DNA from: Phycisphaeraceae bacterium D3-23
Lineage (GTDB): Bacteria > Planctomycetota > Phycisphaerae > Phycisphaerales > Phycisphaeraceae
Direction: 5' to 3'
Assembly (NCBI GenBank): GCA_039555135.1
Contig: CP114179.1
Coordinates: 558,001 to 622,000, forward strand
Length of the DNA: 64,000 nucleotides
Made by a program: the position numbers and the translations under genes. The notes under the pieces are model-generated. The model saw only the letters and a list, made by a program, of their open reading frames with translations. It was not told where the DNA came from and did no database searches. Each line of letters begins with the position of its first letter. The stretch's first letter is position 1. This document shows, in pieces, positions 24,526-30,588 of this stretch.

Positions 24526-24990
24526 ATGAAACGACCCGCCACGATCGCCACCGCCTGCTGCTTCGGCCTGCTCGCGCTGTATACGTTCACCGGCTGCGTG
24601 ACGCAGAGCGAACGGCGCGTCTCCCCCACGCCCGAGGCGGGCGAACGCATCACACCGCGCGTCGGGCTCGAAGCGCCCACCGACCTGCACGACATCTCGG
24701 GCTACCTGCTGCGCTACCGCGTGAATAACCAGCGCATGCCCGAGACGCTGGCCGAGCTTCGCACCGCAGGCATCATGCCCGCCGACGGCTACCCGGAGCT
24801 CGAGGACTACGCCTACAAGAGCGACGGCATGGGCACGCTCCGCGACGGCCGGCGCGTCATCGTCGTCGATACCGACGACCACATCGCGGGCCACCTCTGG
24901 TGCATCCTCGCCGAGCCCTCGCGCAACCCACGGGCCGCGACGCTGGCGGTGTCACTAGTCCCCGTGACGGACCTGCGTGCCGCACAGTGA
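24526..24990 (+). CDS. Small lipoprotein downstream of gspD
   Basis: 154-aa lipoprotein of unknown family. The N-terminus has a hydrophobic signal and a lipobox ending in Cys (LYTFTGC), then a Pro/Glu linker. The mature part contains a helix (LHDISGYLLRYRVNNQRMPETLAELR), a loop DGYPELEDYAYKSDG and a strand region RRVIVVDTDDHIAGHLWCILAEP, which recalls the globular part of pseudopilins without a prepilin site. The 62-nt gap from gspD holds a TATAGT box just upstream, so it may have its own promoter. Function unknown; association with secretion is suggested only by position. Confidence 0.75.
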   Translation: MKRPATIATACCFGLLALYTFTGCVTQSERRVSPTPEAGERITPRVGLEAPTDLHDISGYLLRYRVNNQRMPETLAELRTAGIMPADGYPELEDYAYKSDGMGTLRDGRRVIVVDTDDHIAGHLWCILAEPSRNPRAATLAVSLVPVTDLRAAQ

Positions 24991-25026
24991 TCCGTCGGCC
25001 GGGTGGAGCGCGCCCGACGCCCAAAC

Positions 25027-25368
25027 TCAGATCGCCGAACCGCCGCGCTCACCGGTGCGGATGCGGATGCACTCTTCGAGCGGCAGGACCATGATCTTCC
25101 CGTCGCCGACCTCCCCGCCGTTGCGGCGTGCGCCGGTGAGGATGGCCTGGACCGTCGGCTCGACAAACGCGTCGTTGACCGCGATGTCCAGACGCACCTT
25201 CGGGATCAGGTCGGGCGTCACCTCCTGGCCGCGGTAGAAGTCACGGTCCTCCTGCTGGCCGTGGCCCGTGACACGGGTAACGGTGATGCGGAAGATCTCC
25301 GCGTCGATGAGGGACTGGTGGACCGCGTCAAGCCGGTCGGGCGGGATGATGGCGATGATGTGTTTCAT
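25027..25368 (-). CDS. glnK: PII signal protein (GlnK/GlnB family), non-canonical T-loop
   Basis: 113-aa trimeric PII regulator that senses ATP/ADP and 2-oxoglutarate and can block ammonium transporters. The ATG at 25368 starts MKHIIAIIPPDRLDAVHQSL. The T-loop reads GQQEDRDFYRGQEVTPDLIPK: the conserved YRG is present, but the position equivalent to the uridylylated Tyr51 is Val. The B-loop GGEVGDGKIMV and C-loop IRTGERGG are intact. It follows an amt gene on the same strand, the usual glnK-amt pairing in reverse order. Regulation by uridylylation is therefore not expected at that residue. Confidence 0.93.
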   Translation of the reverse strand: MKHIIAIIPPDRLDAVHQSLIDAEIFRITVTRVTGHGQQEDRDFYRGQEVTPDLIPKVRLDIAVNDAFVEPTVQAILTGARRNGGEVGDGKIMVLPLEECIRIRTGERGGSAI

Positions 25369-25389
25369 GGCGTCGCTTTGTATTCGCAA

Positions 25390-25405
25390 GACAGGCATGC
25401 CTGTC
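25390..25405. repeat. 16-bp perfect palindrome in the amt-glnK gap
   Basis: GACAGGCATGCCTGTC is a perfect 16-bp palindrome in the 104-nt gap between the second amt and its glnK, reading on the minus strand. It could be a weak hairpin or a repeat remnant of the ACAGTCCTGTCTGCC family. No gene is visible in this gap. Confidence 0.4.
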
Positions 25406-25472
25406 GATCTTGGTGAGTGACTCACGGCTTCGTCGCGATGATAAGCAGGAATGTGTGCCCTACCTTGAAGAG

Positions 25473-26792
25473 TTAGTTGAGATTGAGCAGGCCGTAGCCG
25501 TGCTCGCCGTGGAGTTCGTGGTCCATGCCGGCCCGCTGCTCCTGGTCGGAGAGCTTGAGGCCGAGGGTTTTGTCGATCGCGATCGCGATGATGGCGGTCA
25601 TGATGCCGGACACGCCGATCGCAAGCAGGACACCTTCGATCTGGTGCCACATCTGCGTGGCCCAACTCGCCGCCGACTCGCGAAGGAAGAACATCAGGCC
25701 GATCGCGCCGATGATGCCTGCGACGCCGTGGATCCCGAAGACATCCAGCGTGTCGTCGTAGCCGAGCTTGTTCTTGATCATGATGGCGCCGTATGCACCG
25801 ACAGACCCCATCGCACCGAGCACTAGAGCACCCATCGTCGTCACCGCGCCGGCGGCCGGGGTGATCGCGACCAGCCCCGCGATGATACCCGAGGCCATCC
25901 CCAGCGAAGTCGCCTTCTTCAGGTGCAGAGACTCGATGAGCACCCAGGTGAGCGCCGCCGCAGCCGCTGCAATCTGTGTCATCGCCAGCGCTCGGCCCGT
26001 ATCCAGATTGGACTGCACAAACGACCCGGAGTTGAACCCGAACCAGCCAACCCACAGCAGACCCGCGCCGAGCAGCGTCAACACCAGATTGTTGGGGTGC
26101 ATCGCGGTGCGTGGGTAGCCGCGCCTCGACCCGAGGATCAAGGCGCAGACCAGCCCCGCCGTCCCCGCGGCGATGTGGATCACGGTCCCGCCTGCGAGGT
26201 CGATCGCTTTCCCACTCACCAAACCTCCGCCCCAAATCATGTGGCACAGCGGGCAGTACACCAGCAGCGACCACAGCAGGATGAACAGGCAGTACCCACG
26301 GAACTTGACCCGCTCCGCGAACGCGCCCGCAATCAGCGCCGGCGCAATGATCGCAAACTTACCTTGGAACATCGCGAATACGAACGATGGAATCGCGAGC
26401 GTACCCGCTTCATTGATCGTGGTGTACTGGCCGGCCTCGGTGTCCAGCCCGGCGAGGAGCAGGTACTCAGGGCTCCAGCCGATGATGCCGCCGAGTTGTG
26501 AATCGCCGAAGCACATCCCGTACCCCACCACCGCCCAGCTCACCCCGATGATCGCCATCGCGACGAAGCTGTGCATCATCGTGCCCAGCACGTTCTTGGT
26601 GCGCACCAGCCCGCCGTAGAACAGCGCGAGCCCGGGGACCATCAGCAGGACCAACGCGGTCGAGGTGAGCATCCACGCCGTCGTGCCGGTGTCGATCTCC
26701 GGGGTCGCGGGCGGCGCGACGTCCTGCCCGAGCGCGGCGGGCGCGAGGATTAGTAACAAGACAGCAACAGCCCAAAGGTACTTGCGGGGCAT
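25473..26792 (-). CDS. amt: Ammonium transporter Amt (copy 2)
   Basis: 439-aa Amt/MEP/Rh family ammonium channel, an 11-helix inner-membrane trimer. The ATG at 26792 gives a signal peptide (YLWAVAVLLLILAPAALG) typical of Amt, then TTAWMLTSTALVLLMVPGLALFYGGLVRTKNVLG, the family signature. Other visible landmarks are WGGGLVSGKAIDLAGGTVIHIAAG (pore His in DLAGGTVIH) and DDTLDVFGIHGVAGIIGAIG (second His). The frame is open upstream to 26870, but that form lacks a good start. No clear Shine-Dalgarno precedes the start. It sits between two glnK genes in an amt-glnK-amt-glnK run. Confidence 0.95.
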   Translation of the reverse strand: MPRKYLWAVAVLLLILAPAALGQDVAPPATPEIDTGTTAWMLTSTALVLLMVPGLALFYGGLVRTKNVLGTMMHSFVAMAIIGVSWAVVGYGMCFGDSQLGGIIGWSPEYLLLAGLDTEAGQYTTINEAGTLAIPSFVFAMFQGKFAIIAPALIAGAFAERVKFRGYCLFILLWSLLVYCPLCHMIWGGGLVSGKAIDLAGGTVIHIAAGTAGLVCALILGSRRGYPRTAMHPNNLVLTLLGAGLLWVGWFGFNSGSFVQSNLDTGRALAMTQIAAAAAALTWVLIESLHLKKATSLGMASGIIAGLVAITPAAGAVTTMGALVLGAMGSVGAYGAIMIKNKLGYDDTLDVFGIHGVAGIIGAIGLMFFLRESAASWATQMWHQIEGVLLAIGVSGIMTAIIAIAIDKTLGLKLSDQEQRAGMDHELHGEHGYGLLNLN

Positions 26793-27136
26793 AGGGACAA
26801 ACCGATCTAGAGGGTTAAGCAAAAATAGAGGGGCACACGATGCCATCCAACTACGCAACCGCGGTGCCACACCAACACACCCTCAATCACCGCGAGAAAT
26901 CAGTGTCTCTCCGTCAATCACCAGCACAGAATGCGCGCAGAAAACCGCCACTGCCTGTTTACAAGGCAGCGACGGCTCGTTTCCTTCCCCCAAGCCGGCC
27001 CGGCCGGCGCAGAACGCCGTACCGGGCAGGCCTCGTGTGGCCGTCCATCGACCGCCAACTCCAACCCAGCGACGCCGCCGAAAAACCCCGAGACTGCCCG
27101 TTAGAGCAGCCGGGGCATAGGAGGATTCCGTGTCGG
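26793..27136. other. Intergenic region upstream of amt copy 2
   Basis: 344 nt between amt copy 2 and the first glnK (both on the minus strand). Open frames here are short and lack family resemblance. The stretch near 27090-27120 can fold (CCGAGACTGCCCG ... CGGGGC). It is long enough to hold a promoter for amt copy 2, so the two amt-glnK pairs may be transcribed separately, but I cannot name a promoter with confidence. Confidence 0.4.
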
Positions 27137-27478
27137 CTATCCGATCGCGTCCGCGTCGGTCTCGCCGGTGCGGATGCGGACACACTGAGCGAGTTCGACG
27201 ACGAAGATCTTGCCATCGCCGATCGTGCCGGTGCGCGCCGCAGCGGTGATCGCGTCGATCGTGGGCTGGACGAACTCGTCGCTGAGCCCGATCTCGATGC
27301 GCACCTTCTTGAGCAGGTTCACCTCGATATCGGTACCCCGGTAGTGCTCGTGGTAGCCCTTCTGCTGCCCGCAGCCCATGGCCGTGGTCACCGACATCTT
27401 GTAGATCTTCTTCTCGAACAGCGCCTGCTTCACGGCGTTGAGCTTTTCGGGCTGGATATAGGCAATCAAAAGTTTCAT
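27137..27478 (-). CDS. glnK: PII signal protein (GlnK/GlnB family), Ile at position 51
   Basis: 113-aa PII protein. The ATG at 27478 starts [20 protein letters not shown]. The T-loop reads [22 protein letters not shown]: Tyr46 of YRG is kept and position 51 is Ile instead of Tyr, so classical GlnD uridylylation is not possible at this site. The B-loop [11 protein letters not shown] and C-terminal VRIRTGE are canonical, so nucleotide and 2-oxoglutarate binding should be retained. It follows amt copy 1 (62-nt gap), and would control that transporter by direct binding. Confidence 0.94.
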
Positions 27479-27540
27479 AACTTGCGTCTCGTTTGTTTTA
27501 GATGGAGTAGGAAGAAACATGGAACATCAGGCCCAGCGGA

Positions 27541-29040
27541 CTACACGCTTGAGAACGTCTGGAAGCCCGCGTAGGCCTCCATACCGTGCTCCCCGATATC
27601 CAGGCCCTGCACCTCTTCTTCTTCCTCGACCCGAAGCCCAAGGGTGGCCTTGAGCACCAGCCCGACCGCGCCGCAGAAGACCGCTGTGGGGATCGCGTAG
27701 GCCACTACACCGACCGCCTGGACGCCGAACTGCGCAACGCCGCTCTGGATCGTGGCCTCGGGGTCGGGCACAAAACCGATGATGCCCTTCGCGCCGAAGA
27801 GGCCGACGGCCAGCGTGCCCCAGATCCCGCAGACCAGGTGGACCGAAATCGCACCGACCGGGTCATCGATCTTCAGGTAGCGGTCGATAGCGACCACCGA
27901 GAAGTAGACGATCACCCCGGCGATGCCGCCGATGACCACCGCGTGCCAGATGTCCATCTGGTCCGCCCCGGCCGTGATGCCGACGAGCCCTGCCAGGATG
28001 CCGTTGAGCGCCATCGACAGGTCGGGCTTCCTGTCCATCACCCAGCTTGTCAAACTCGCGACCAGCCCGCCCGAGGCGCCGGCCATCACGGTTGTCACGA
28101 GCACCAGCGAGATGCCCGCCGGGTCGGCGCTCAGCACCGAACCGCCGTTGAACCCGAACCACCCAAACCATAAGAGGAACACGCCGATCGCGGCGAGGGG
28201 CATACTGTGGCCGGGGATCGCCTTGGGCATGCCGTTGACATACTTGCCGATGCGCGGGCCAAGCAAGATCGCCATGACGAGTGCGCCCCACCCGCCCACG
28301 GAGTGGACCAGCGTCGAGCCGGCAAAGTCGTGAAAGCCCATCTCGGCCAACCAGCCCCCGCCCCAGTGCCAGGCCCCAAGGATCGGGTAGCACAGACCGA
28401 CGAAGACGGTCGAGAAGAGGAGGAACGAGCCGAGCTTGATTCGGCCAGCGACCGCGCCCGAGACGATCGTCGCGGCCGTCGCCGCGAACATCGCCTGGAA
28501 GAAGAAGTCGGTGTACCAGGTATAGGCGGCGGCACCCTCTTCACTACCGTAGTAGCGCGTCAGTGAGGCAGGCGTTGACCCATCTTCGGTGGGTGCCACC
28601 GTGATAAACCCGCTGACCGCGTCGAGGTCGATCCAGCCGTTGATGCCCATGCCGACCTCACCTTCGCCAAAGCCCGGGTACATCAGGTTGAACCCGACCA
28701 GCCCGTAGGTGAGTAGCCCGATGCAGATGATCATCGTGTTCTTGAAGAGGATGTTGACGGTGTTCTTCGAGCGCGTCAGCCCCGACTCGACACACGCAAA
28801 ACCCAGGTGCATCGTGAAGACCATCGCCCCAGCGATGAGCAGCCAGAGGTTGCCGACGATGAAGTTGATGTCCTCCATCGTCGCGTAAGTCGGCGCTTCC
28901 GCGACAACCTCGGCGGCTTCGACCGCCTCGGGCGCGGCATCGCCCTGCGCCAACGAAGGCAACGCGACCAGCAGGCCGAGCATCACCAGGAGCGGGATCA
29001 GGTACAGGCGTAACGGTTTGGATCGATCGGGCTTGAGCAT
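27541..29040 (-). CDS. amt: Ammonium transporter Amt (copy 1)
   Basis: 499-aa Amt family transporter. The ATG at 29040 is preceded by GGAG with 6-nt spacing (an in-frame ATG at 29052 is less well placed). A signal peptide (LYLIPLLVMLGLLVALPSLA) and an acidic spacer lead into NFIVGNLWLLIAGAMVFTMHLGFACVESGLTRSKN. Pore features: GWGALVMAI region with DFAGSTLVHSVGG (first pore His) and ISVHLVCGIWGTLAVG (second). An acidic EEEEEVQGLDIGEHG tail is typical of PII-regulated members. It differs clearly from copy 2 (longer first loop, different His context), so the pair is not a recent duplication. First gene of the amt-glnK-amt-glnK run. Confidence 0.95.
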   Translation of the reverse strand: MLKPDRSKPLRLYLIPLLVMLGLLVALPSLAQGDAAPEAVEAAEVVAEAPTYATMEDINFIVGNLWLLIAGAMVFTMHLGFACVESGLTRSKNTVNILFKNTMIICIGLLTYGLVGFNLMYPGFGEGEVGMGINGWIDLDAVSGFITVAPTEDGSTPASLTRYYGSEEGAAAYTWYTDFFFQAMFAATAATIVSGAVAGRIKLGSFLLFSTVFVGLCYPILGAWHWGGGWLAEMGFHDFAGSTLVHSVGGWGALVMAILLGPRIGKYVNGMPKAIPGHSMPLAAIGVFLLWFGWFGFNGGSVLSADPAGISLVLVTTVMAGASGGLVASLTSWVMDRKPDLSMALNGILAGLVGITAGADQMDIWHAVVIGGIAGVIVYFSVVAIDRYLKIDDPVGAISVHLVCGIWGTLAVGLFGAKGIIGFVPDPEATIQSGVAQFGVQAVGVVAYAIPTAVFCGAVGLVLKATLGLRVEEEEEVQGLDIGEHGMEAYAGFQTFSSV

Positions 29041-29343
29041 GAGACTCCTCATAGGGATAGGACATCCGCCGTGGTACACGGAGGATCAGGGCCACACGAC
29101 GCTTTTCGAAGAGGCAGTCTTCGCTGAGATAGGCGTCTACATGCCCAATGTTGGAACAAAGGGCGTGCCAAAGAAAAAAACGCCTGAATACTTGGATTCA
29201 GGCGTCTAATCGCGTCTTTTTCCATACTGCATCGGCGAGTCGCAATGATGGTGCCGCCCAATTGTGAGGCGATGGGGCACCCACTGCGCGCTTCGTAAGC
29301 GGCGACCAGGCGGCTTGCCTATGGCTGGCCACGTTGCTTGCAA
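29041..29343. other. Intergenic region between the DUF1080 gene and amt copy 1
   Basis: 303 nt between two minus-strand genes. It holds the terminator of the DUF1080 gene (29174-29204) and, closer to 29041, the upstream region of amt copy 1. The short plus-strand ORF crossing it runs through the terminator stem and is not believable as a gene. No other feature is seen. Confidence 0.6.
29174..29204 (-). terminator. Rho-independent terminator downstream of the DUF1080 gene
   Basis: On the minus strand CGCCTGAAT (29204-29196) pairs with ATTCAGGCG (29189-29181) around a 6-nt loop, and seven T follow directly (29180-29174). This is a textbook intrinsic terminator oriented for transcripts of the DUF1080 gene, 140 nt after its stop. 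Confidence 0.88.
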
Positions 29344-30588
29344 CTACTCCAATGGACGAAGCTGCACCTTACGAAACTCGATCGGCGTGCCCTCCGCCTG
29401 CAGGCAGATCGCGCCGTGGCCGGCCTCAATGTCGGTGCCGGCGTTTACCTCGTCGCCATTCACCCACACGCGGATCGTGTCGCCTTCGCAGCGCACGACC
29501 ATCGTGTTCCATTCGCCGATGGCGTGCTCGCTGTCGTTGGTCGTGTTGATCGTGCGTCGGCCCTGCGTCGTCTGGTCGTCGGAGACCGTCACGCCCAGCC
29601 CGATCCGCCAGAAGTCGCCCGCGTTGCCTGAGCCCAGCTGCACCTCCAGCGACTTGGGCCAGGGCCCCATCTCGCGCGGGCTCGAGCAGTGCACCAGCAG
29701 CCCCGAGTTGCCCCCACCGCCGGGCCAACGCCACTGCACCTCGAGTTCGTAGTCGCGGAAGTCCTGCACCGTGCGGATCACACCCGCCGGCCGACCGGCG
29801 TCCTTCAAGACACCGTCCTCGACACTGAACACGTCCGTCAGGGCCGCGTCATTATTGAGATCGCTCGTCCAGCCCGTGAGTGATTCGCCATCGAACAGGT
29901 CGATCGTTTCCATCGGCGTCACGACCAGCGGGTGGAGCGTGACGTTGCGGAACTCGACCGCGACGCCCTCGCTCTGCAGGCCGATGCGGCCGGCGCTGGC
30001 TTCGATGTCGTGGCAGCGGTTGACCAGGACGCCGTTGATGTAGACCGCCACCGTGTCGCCGTCGCAGACGACGTGCATCGTGTTCCATTCGCCCACTTCG
30101 TGCTCCGCACCGTCCGCGATCTTCACCGCGCGCCCGCCGGTCTGTGCGCTGTCTTTGTGGTCGGCGTGGTAGCCGAACCCGCCGATGCCGTGGAAGTCGC
30201 CCGCATCGCCCGACTGGAGTTGGGGCTCCAGGCACTTGGGCCAGGGCCCCGCAACACGCGAGCCCGACGCGTGCACCAGCACGCCCGAATTGCCCGCACC
30301 CTCGGGCCAGCGCCACTGCAGCGTCAGCACATAGTCGGTGTACTCGGCCTGGGTCAGCAGCGCCCCCACCGGCTGGCCCGTGAAGCGGACGACGCCGTCG
30401 CTCTGCGTGATCGAATCAGCCGCGTCGTCGGCGTTGGCCACATCGAAGTACCACCCGTCCAGGTCTTCGCCATTGAACAGGTCCATCGACTGGGTCGGCG
30501 TCGTCGGCGTGTCCTGCGCCGTGGCCGGCAACGCAGTCACGAACAGCATCATCAACAGCGTCGGCAGGCAGCGGGCAAGTCCAGGCAT
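29344..30588 (-). CDS. Secreted protein with two DUF1080 (3-keto-disaccharide hydrolase-like) domains
   Basis: 414 aa. A signal peptide (LPTLLMMLFVTALPATA) is followed by two tandem copies of the DUF1080 concanavalin-like fold. Copy 1 begins MDLFNGEDLDGWYFD and contains LQWRWPEGAGNSGVLVHASG; copy 2 begins TIDLFDGESLTGWTSD and contains VQWRWPGGGGNSGLLVHCSS. Both end with NTMVVRCEGDTIRVWVNG-like and VEFRNVTLHPL-like strands. The family includes 3-keto-glycoside hydrolases and is abundant in planctomycetes; catalysis is not proven for these copies. Single-copy proteins are the norm, so the tandem form is less usual. A terminator lies downstream. Start ATG 30588. Confidence 0.88.
   Translation of the reverse strand: MPGLARCLPTLLMMLFVTALPATAQDTPTTPTQSMDLFNGEDLDGWYFDVANADDAADSITQSDGVVRFTGQPVGALLTQAEYTDYVLTLQWRWPEGAGNSGVLVHASGSRVAGPWPKCLEPQLQSGDAGDFHGIGGFGYHADHKDSAQTGGRAVKIADGAEHEVGEWNTMHVVCDGDTVAVYINGVLVNRCHDIEASAGRIGLQSEGVAVEFRNVTLHPLVVTPMETIDLFDGESLTGWTSDLNNDAALTDVFSVEDGVLKDAGRPAGVIRTVQDFRDYELEVQWRWPGGGGNSGLLVHCSSPREMGPWPKSLEVQLGSGNAGDFWRIGLGVTVSDDQTTQGRRTINTTNDSEHAIGEWNTMVVRCEGDTIRVWVNGDEVNAGTDIEAGHGAICLQAEGTPIEFRKVQLRPLE

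Follow-up and report, generated by a model that had tools for sequence, protein, structure and literature searches.

Two amt-glnK units in a planctomycete of the class Phycisphaerae encode PII proteins that lack Tyr51 and probably act without uridylylation

The window analyzed here, a 64,000-base stretch spanning bases 558001-622000 of the single-contig genome of Phycisphaeraceae bacterium D3-23 (4.62 Mb, 98.3% complete), contains two consecutive pairs of genes for an ammonium transporter (Amt) and a PII protein of the GlnK type. All four genes lie on the minus strand in the order amt-B, PII-1, amt-A, PII-2, with each PII gene directly downstream of an amt. The amt-glnK-amt-glnK run proposed in a sequence-only reading of this DNA is thus borne out by matches to PF00909 and PF00543:

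27541-29079, minus strand: amt-B, ammonium transporter, first gene of the first unit (PF00909 E 4.4e-118; TIGR00836 above cut-off)
27137-27478, minus strand: PII-1, GlnK type, Ile51, T-loop class GCGxQ..YRG (PF00543 E 1.3e-23)
25473-26870, minus strand: amt-A, ammonium transporter, first gene of the second unit (PF00909 E 9.6e-105; TIGR00836 above cut-off)
25027-25368, minus strand: PII-2, GlnK type, Val aligned with position 51 (PF00543 E 4.2e-22)

Translation likely begins at an in-frame ATG at 29052 in amt-B and at 26792 in amt-A. Both PII proteins are 113 amino acids long and match the full P-II profile (positions 1-102 of 102), scoring 83.7 bits (PII-1) and 78.9 bits (PII-2) against a PF00543 cut-off of 25. 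A PII fold was predicted for both monomers (mean pLDDT 88.4 for PII-1 and 91.3 for PII-2), and PDB searches with each model listed 50 matches, all of them PII proteins or PII-containing complexes.

Alignment of the T-loops places Ile at position 51 of PII-1. The T-loop of PII-2, GHGQQEDRDFYRGQEVTPDLIPK, is one residue shorter, and the Val that aligns with position 51 is therefore numbered 50. As the earlier reading had claimed, both proteins lack the tyrosine that characterizes the GlnD-modified PII of Proteobacteria and Actinobacteria. The Ser49 of phosphorylated cyanobacterial PII is likewise missing, PII-1 having Thr49 and PII-2 a Gln that aligns with it. Tyr42 and Tyr46 are retained in PII-1, and PII-2 has a gap at position 42.

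The residues surrounding the ligand sites are largely, though not wholly, preserved. Gln39, Lys58, GDGK (87-90), Arg101, and Arg103 are kept in both proteins by alignment (with the T-loop of PII-2 offset by one), as are the RIR motif close to the C-terminus and Arg47 at the tip of the T-loop, which reads YRG in both. The claim that the ligand-binding loops are intact holds for Gln39, Lys58, GDGK, and RIR, but not for Cys36 in PII-1, Gln38 in both proteins, or Pro9 and one additional B-loop residue (RRNGGEVGDGK) in PII-2. Tyr51 sequences such as L003 have Phe36 and Arg38 where PII-1 has Cys36 and Gln38. Arg38 is absent from both proteins, and in PII-2 the B-loop and residue 9 (Pro) differ as well, so either may bind 2-oxoglutarate in an altered way.

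We found no match in the genome to PF08335, which covers both GlnD and GlnE, in a profile search that recovered its E. coli, Caulobacter, and Corynebacterium controls; the absence of GlnE was judged by this profile, and TIGR01693, the full-length GlnD model, found nothing in the genome better than E 0.18. Since the assembly is slightly short of complete, a gene could lie in the missing part. The genome contains two PF00543 matches, both in the window. Neither a glnD gene nor a third canonical PII gene, the two findings that the earlier reading had suggested looking for, was therefore detected.

Both transporter genes are preceded by a close match to the sigma-54 consensus:

29155-29170, minus strand: sigma-54-like (-24/-12) match upstream of amt-B, TGGCACGCCCTTTGTT, one mismatch
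26854-26869, minus strand: sigma-54-like (-24/-12) match upstream of amt-A, TGGCACCGCGGTTGCG, one mismatch

With at most one mismatch, this motif occurred three times in the 64 kb, compared to 0.73 expected per strand from a Markov simulation, and two of the three sites are correctly oriented and precede the probable amt starts by about 62 to 118 bases. There was no excess at two mismatches or fewer (19 matches in the window versus 23.6 by chance). When the 400 bases preceding the Amt domain were searched, allowing one mismatch at most, the motif was present for 38 of 96 amt genes of the class (amt-A included), against controls of 1/96 for the antisense strand and 0.6 for shuffles; the same motif preceded 1 of 24 amt genes elsewhere in the phylum and 18 of 68 in named loci. 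No sigma-70 promoter matches were found in 24900-29500. The genome encodes rpoN (E 1.6e-59), its five matches to an NtrC model all fall under the cut-off, and the only glutamine synthetase detected is of type III. We infer that both amt-glnK units are probably transcribed via sigma-54.

To place the two proteins among their relatives, we turned to the 198 genomes of the class. PF00543 matched 126 of these, and 147 PII sequences from 97 of the 126 were aligned, a set that mostly leaves out weaker matches outside the window's family and drops those shorter than 70 residues. Tyr51 was present in 7 of the 147 and absent from 140, with position 51 otherwise occupied by Phe (33), Met (32), Glu (26), Ile (16), Val (16), Leu (6), other residues (10), or a gap (1). 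The T-loop alignment proposed in the sequence-only reading thus indicates that the loss of Tyr51 is class-wide and no peculiarity of one genome. Within the loop class of PII-1 (GCGxQ..YRG, n = 59), 58 sequences lack Tyr51, yet Tyr46 persists in 58 and Arg47 in 58, so the loss is not due to chance; Tyr42 occurs in 52. Gln39, Lys58, Gly87, Asp88, Gly89, Lys90, and Arg103 are present in all 59 and Arg101 in 58. An amt lies on the same strand within 600 bp of 56 of these 59, and just upstream on the same strand of 113 of the 140 class PII genes without Tyr51. Most sampled relatives in the class seem to work likewise without tagging. For five of the seven class rows with Tyr51, a NifI-type identity suggested by a motif was set aside, as NCBIfam gave general P-II matches only.

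GlnD itself is rare in the class. PF08335 matched 5 of the 198 genomes (four GlnE-type proteins and one true GlnD), compared to 93 of 244 genomes in a draw from the phylum that included some class genomes. The only true GlnD, above the TIGR01693 cut-off, belongs to genome G185, where the gene order is amt, a PII with Tyr51 (canonical YRGAEY), and glnD; a second PII of this genome, on another contig, has Asn51. In the tree, the rows nearest to the PII beside glnD lie outside the class. The glnD contig could be contamination, but composition argues against this, with a tetranucleotide correlation to the other PII contig of G185 of 0.77, versus at most 0.68 for any other locus of at least 5 kb.

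Separately, single-half GlnE proteins of the class (L367:3215-5620, L368:802-3213, and L369:914-4186, in G021, G153, and G034) match, in their N-terminal part, the ACT region at the C-terminus of GlnD (TIGR01693 E 1.3e-15 to 1e-7). Judging from this architecture, they are possibly glutamine-sensing glutamine synthetase adenylyltransferases that bypass PII; a partial literature search found no published account of the fusion.

Among the PII rows fetched, Tyr51 occurred in 40 of 42 GlnD-positive genomes versus 16 of 125 GlnD-negative genomes, the GlnD-positive sample being enriched by top search matches, many genomes being represented by part of their PII, and most genomes being labeled for GlnD by how many PF08335 matches they had and how long the matching ORFs were. 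Full-length scans of five GlnD-type proteins placed four above the TIGR01693 cut-off and one (from G290) below it. Outside the class, 105 of 147 fetched PII rows had Tyr51. The association is strong by counts, yet it comes from few independent events: the rows are related, and 10 changes of Tyr51 are required on the tree. A strict coupling of GlnD to Tyr51 was not upheld, the tree offering only 5 to 8 independent pairs, which gave no significant result. Tyr51 is retained in many genomes of families f54, f76, and f77 that lack GlnD. Conversely, a GlnD-like gene is present in G290, G307, and G315, yet the canonical PII fetched from them lack Tyr51 (one of three PII was fetched for G307 and one of four for G315). 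The scan covered two of the three GlnD-like proteins, L360 (G290) and L361 (G315); both fall near the TIGR01693 cut-off, no HD domain was detected in them, and the fetched canonical PII of both genomes has Phe51. They are perhaps GlnD with another substrate.

Relatives outside the class were sought by scanning the PII-2 alignment against named genomes and keeping the best 80 loci. Among these, a short T-loop with Ile or Val occurred in at least two Chlorobiaceae (L281 and L282), in Marinilabilia (L284) and Geofilum (L283), and in a Sedimentisphaerales MAG (L285), the last of which has the same quartet of amt, GCGxQ-type PII, amt, and short-loop PII. The matches listed also included such a loop in a contig titled Chloroflexi (L280, JAJXTS010000022.1), which is 86% identical to the window over 152 bases of the amt-A region and 75% identical with PII-2. 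This contig may be a misbinned planctomycete, and we therefore did not count it as spread to Chloroflexota. GCGxQ-type PII genes without Tyr51 that follow an amt were found, among the matches listed, in Verrucomicrobia (L291), Spirochaetes (L293), Kiritimatiellae (L315), and Margulisbacteria (L288), and a GCGxQ row with Tyr51 in a locus titled Actinomycetota (L301).

Taken together, these data make it very likely that two ordinary GlnK proteins gate their own Amt by binding ATP, ADP, and 2-oxoglutarate, without uridylylation. Under low 2-oxoglutarate and with ADP bound, each GlnK would plug the pore of the Amt whose gene directly precedes its own, and binding of Mg-ATP and 2-oxoglutarate would make it let the transporter go. 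With the acceptor tyrosine missing and no GlnD gene found, control of either Amt would include no uridylylation step, and glutamine would not be read through PII modification. The pore blocking, the effector response, and the pairing of each PII with its Amt are suggested by gene order, kept residues, and published work. In the archaeal Af-GlnK3, Gln39, Lys58, and Arg47 are described as performing the switching and plugging, with Gln39 and Lys58 holding Mg and 2-oxoglutarate (PMC3198391), and E. coli GlnK with Tyr51 changed to Ala is reported to associate with and leave AmtB in step with nitrogen status (PMC4274968, PMC4285133). Many PII proteins are probably never modified, according to one of these accounts (PMC4285133). 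Of the two options that the sequence-only reading had left (ligand binding alone or another modification), we favor the first because no GlnD match and no third PII were found, the key ligand residues are kept, and the published Tyr51Ala GlnK behaves as described.

This arrangement resembles known systems in several ways. The order of amt before glnK is the reverse of that in E. coli, where glnK precedes amtB. E. coli GlnK and AmtB (2NS1, 2NUU) share with our proteins the PII fold, Arg47 at the loop tip, and the linkage to an ammonium channel; unlike in PII-1 and PII-2, Tyr51 of E. coli GlnK is uridylylated by GlnD. Among solved proteins, the closest in sequence to PII-1 is Thermus thermophilus HB8 GlnK (1UFL, 1V3R, 1V3S, 1VFJ; E 5.3e-30), which like PII-1 is without Tyr51 (YRGTTVKMEL, Val51), although its T-loop (GHGGETERVET) differs and lacks the QQK stretch of PII-1. 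PII proteins without Tyr51 are therefore already in the PDB. Descriptions of PII often center on the uridylylated tyrosine, and one structural paper describes Tyr51 as strictly conserved (PMC4475381). Archaeoglobus fulgidus likewise has several effector-gated amt-glnK pairs in one genome, as gene order suggests here (PMC3198391), and the structures of its GlnK2 and GlnK3 match both window models, A. fulgidus being an archaeon.

A different division of labor, in which PII-2 is blind to 2-oxoglutarate and reports ADP/ATP alone, so that one Amt would follow nitrogen and the other energy, is in our view unlikely. The Pro9, Gln38, shorter T-loop, and longer B-loop of PII-2 would fit such a role, and Af-GlnK2 is reported as an amt-linked GlnK without 2-oxoglutarate binding (PMC3198391). 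However, PII-2 keeps the Gln39 and Lys58 that hold Mg and 2-oxoglutarate in Af-GlnK3, and Pro9 is found in PII-2 alone among five short-loop rows, the other four having Gln. The loss of binding in Af-GlnK2 could not be traced to residue 86, as the same source reports (PMC3198391), and sequence is therefore a poor predictor of such loss.

We also consider it rather improbable that glutamine synthetase or some other target is what one of the two PII proteins chiefly controls, with Amt linkage secondary. In sequence, PII-2 is closest among solved proteins to Methanosarcina mazei GlnK1 (8TGE, E 2.7e-31), which was solved in complex with glutamine synthetase and shares the extra B-loop residue, although it has Tyr where PII-2 has Val50. 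Moreover, glutamine synthetase in our genome would need another regulator, since PF08335 is unmatched and the only enzyme detected is of type III. The M. mazei glutamine synthetase, however, is not known to be a type III enzyme, the kind detected here. M. mazei GlnK1 is described as acting on it via the T-loop, which differs from that of PII-2 (PMC10651883). PII-2 retains YRG, and an amt precedes both PII genes.

Modification of another T-loop residue (e.g., Tyr42, Tyr46, or Thr49 of PII-1) by an enzyme unrelated to GlnD appears very unlikely. Hydroxyl groups are available, with Tyr42 and Tyr46 common in the loop class of PII-1 and a Thr right after Val50 in PII-2, and cyanobacterial PII is reported to be phosphorylated at residue 49 (PMC4285133). 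Position 49, however, is Ser or Thr in just 2 of the 59 sequences of that class and is matched by Gln in PII-2, and modification there was set aside; Tyr46 occurs in Tyr51 sequences as well, and the gap in PII-2 removes position 42. The search for a modifying enzyme, which covered GlnD and GlnE, yielded no candidate. The other modification considered in the earlier reading thus finds no positive evidence, though an enzyme of an unrecognized kind acting on PII-1 would still be compatible with its sequence. The absence of Tyr51 from both copies might also reflect drift in decaying genes freed from constraint, but this is scarcely credible and was set aside, given open frames, conserved ligand residues, a widespread and otherwise conserved loop class for PII-1, and the same quartet in L285.

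Ligand-only control by the two GlnK proteins agrees with what is already established. PII without Tyr51 is known, and control by ligands alone is the published reading where PII is unmodified (PMC4285133, PMC4274968); our data leave the accepted mechanism unchanged, since such control of AmtB by GlnK has already been published. What is new is the class-wide extent, the exception in G185, and the short-T-loop PII-2 type across phyla (Chlorobiaceae, Bacteroidota). A partial literature search found no publication on PII in Phycisphaerae, which is weak evidence of absence. A class in which 140 of 147 PII lack Tyr51 and GlnD is nearly absent, with one natural exception having both, allows testing of how uridylylation contributes to the control of Amt, and it cautions against annotating GlnK-GlnD cascades by homology.

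A broader reading, speculative and doubtful when its three parts are taken jointly, would extend ligand-only control beyond this genome. The class would have a GlnD-free nitrogen system with a GlnK of its own just downstream of each Amt, and where these GlnK types occur elsewhere, sporadically in Chlorobiaceae, Bacteroidota, Spirochaetes, and Verrucomicrobia, they may work alike. The GCGxQ..YRG and short-T-loop types would gate different Amts, one responding to 2-oxoglutarate and the other mainly to energy charge. Conservation of residue 51 would then serve a hydrophobic or Glu contact with the channel rather than modification.

Several other PII architectures were seen in the class. In a T-loop class with the pattern GHGRQKG..EVYRG/S (type E; for example L021, L025, and L058), 20 of 22 members have Glu51, which puts a permanent negative charge at the place of the Tyr that can be modified in other PII. 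The ORF at L011:1852-3318 (minus strand) resembles an amino-acid permease, carries a PII domain at its C-terminus, and adjoins a separate PII with Tyr51; long PII ORFs resembling it occur in L026, L029, and L031, the family scan having covered that of L011. Finally, arrays of three PII genes spaced at ~2 kb with amt between them were found at G112:C6:93627-97952 (L063) and G160:C54:1229-5557 (L072).
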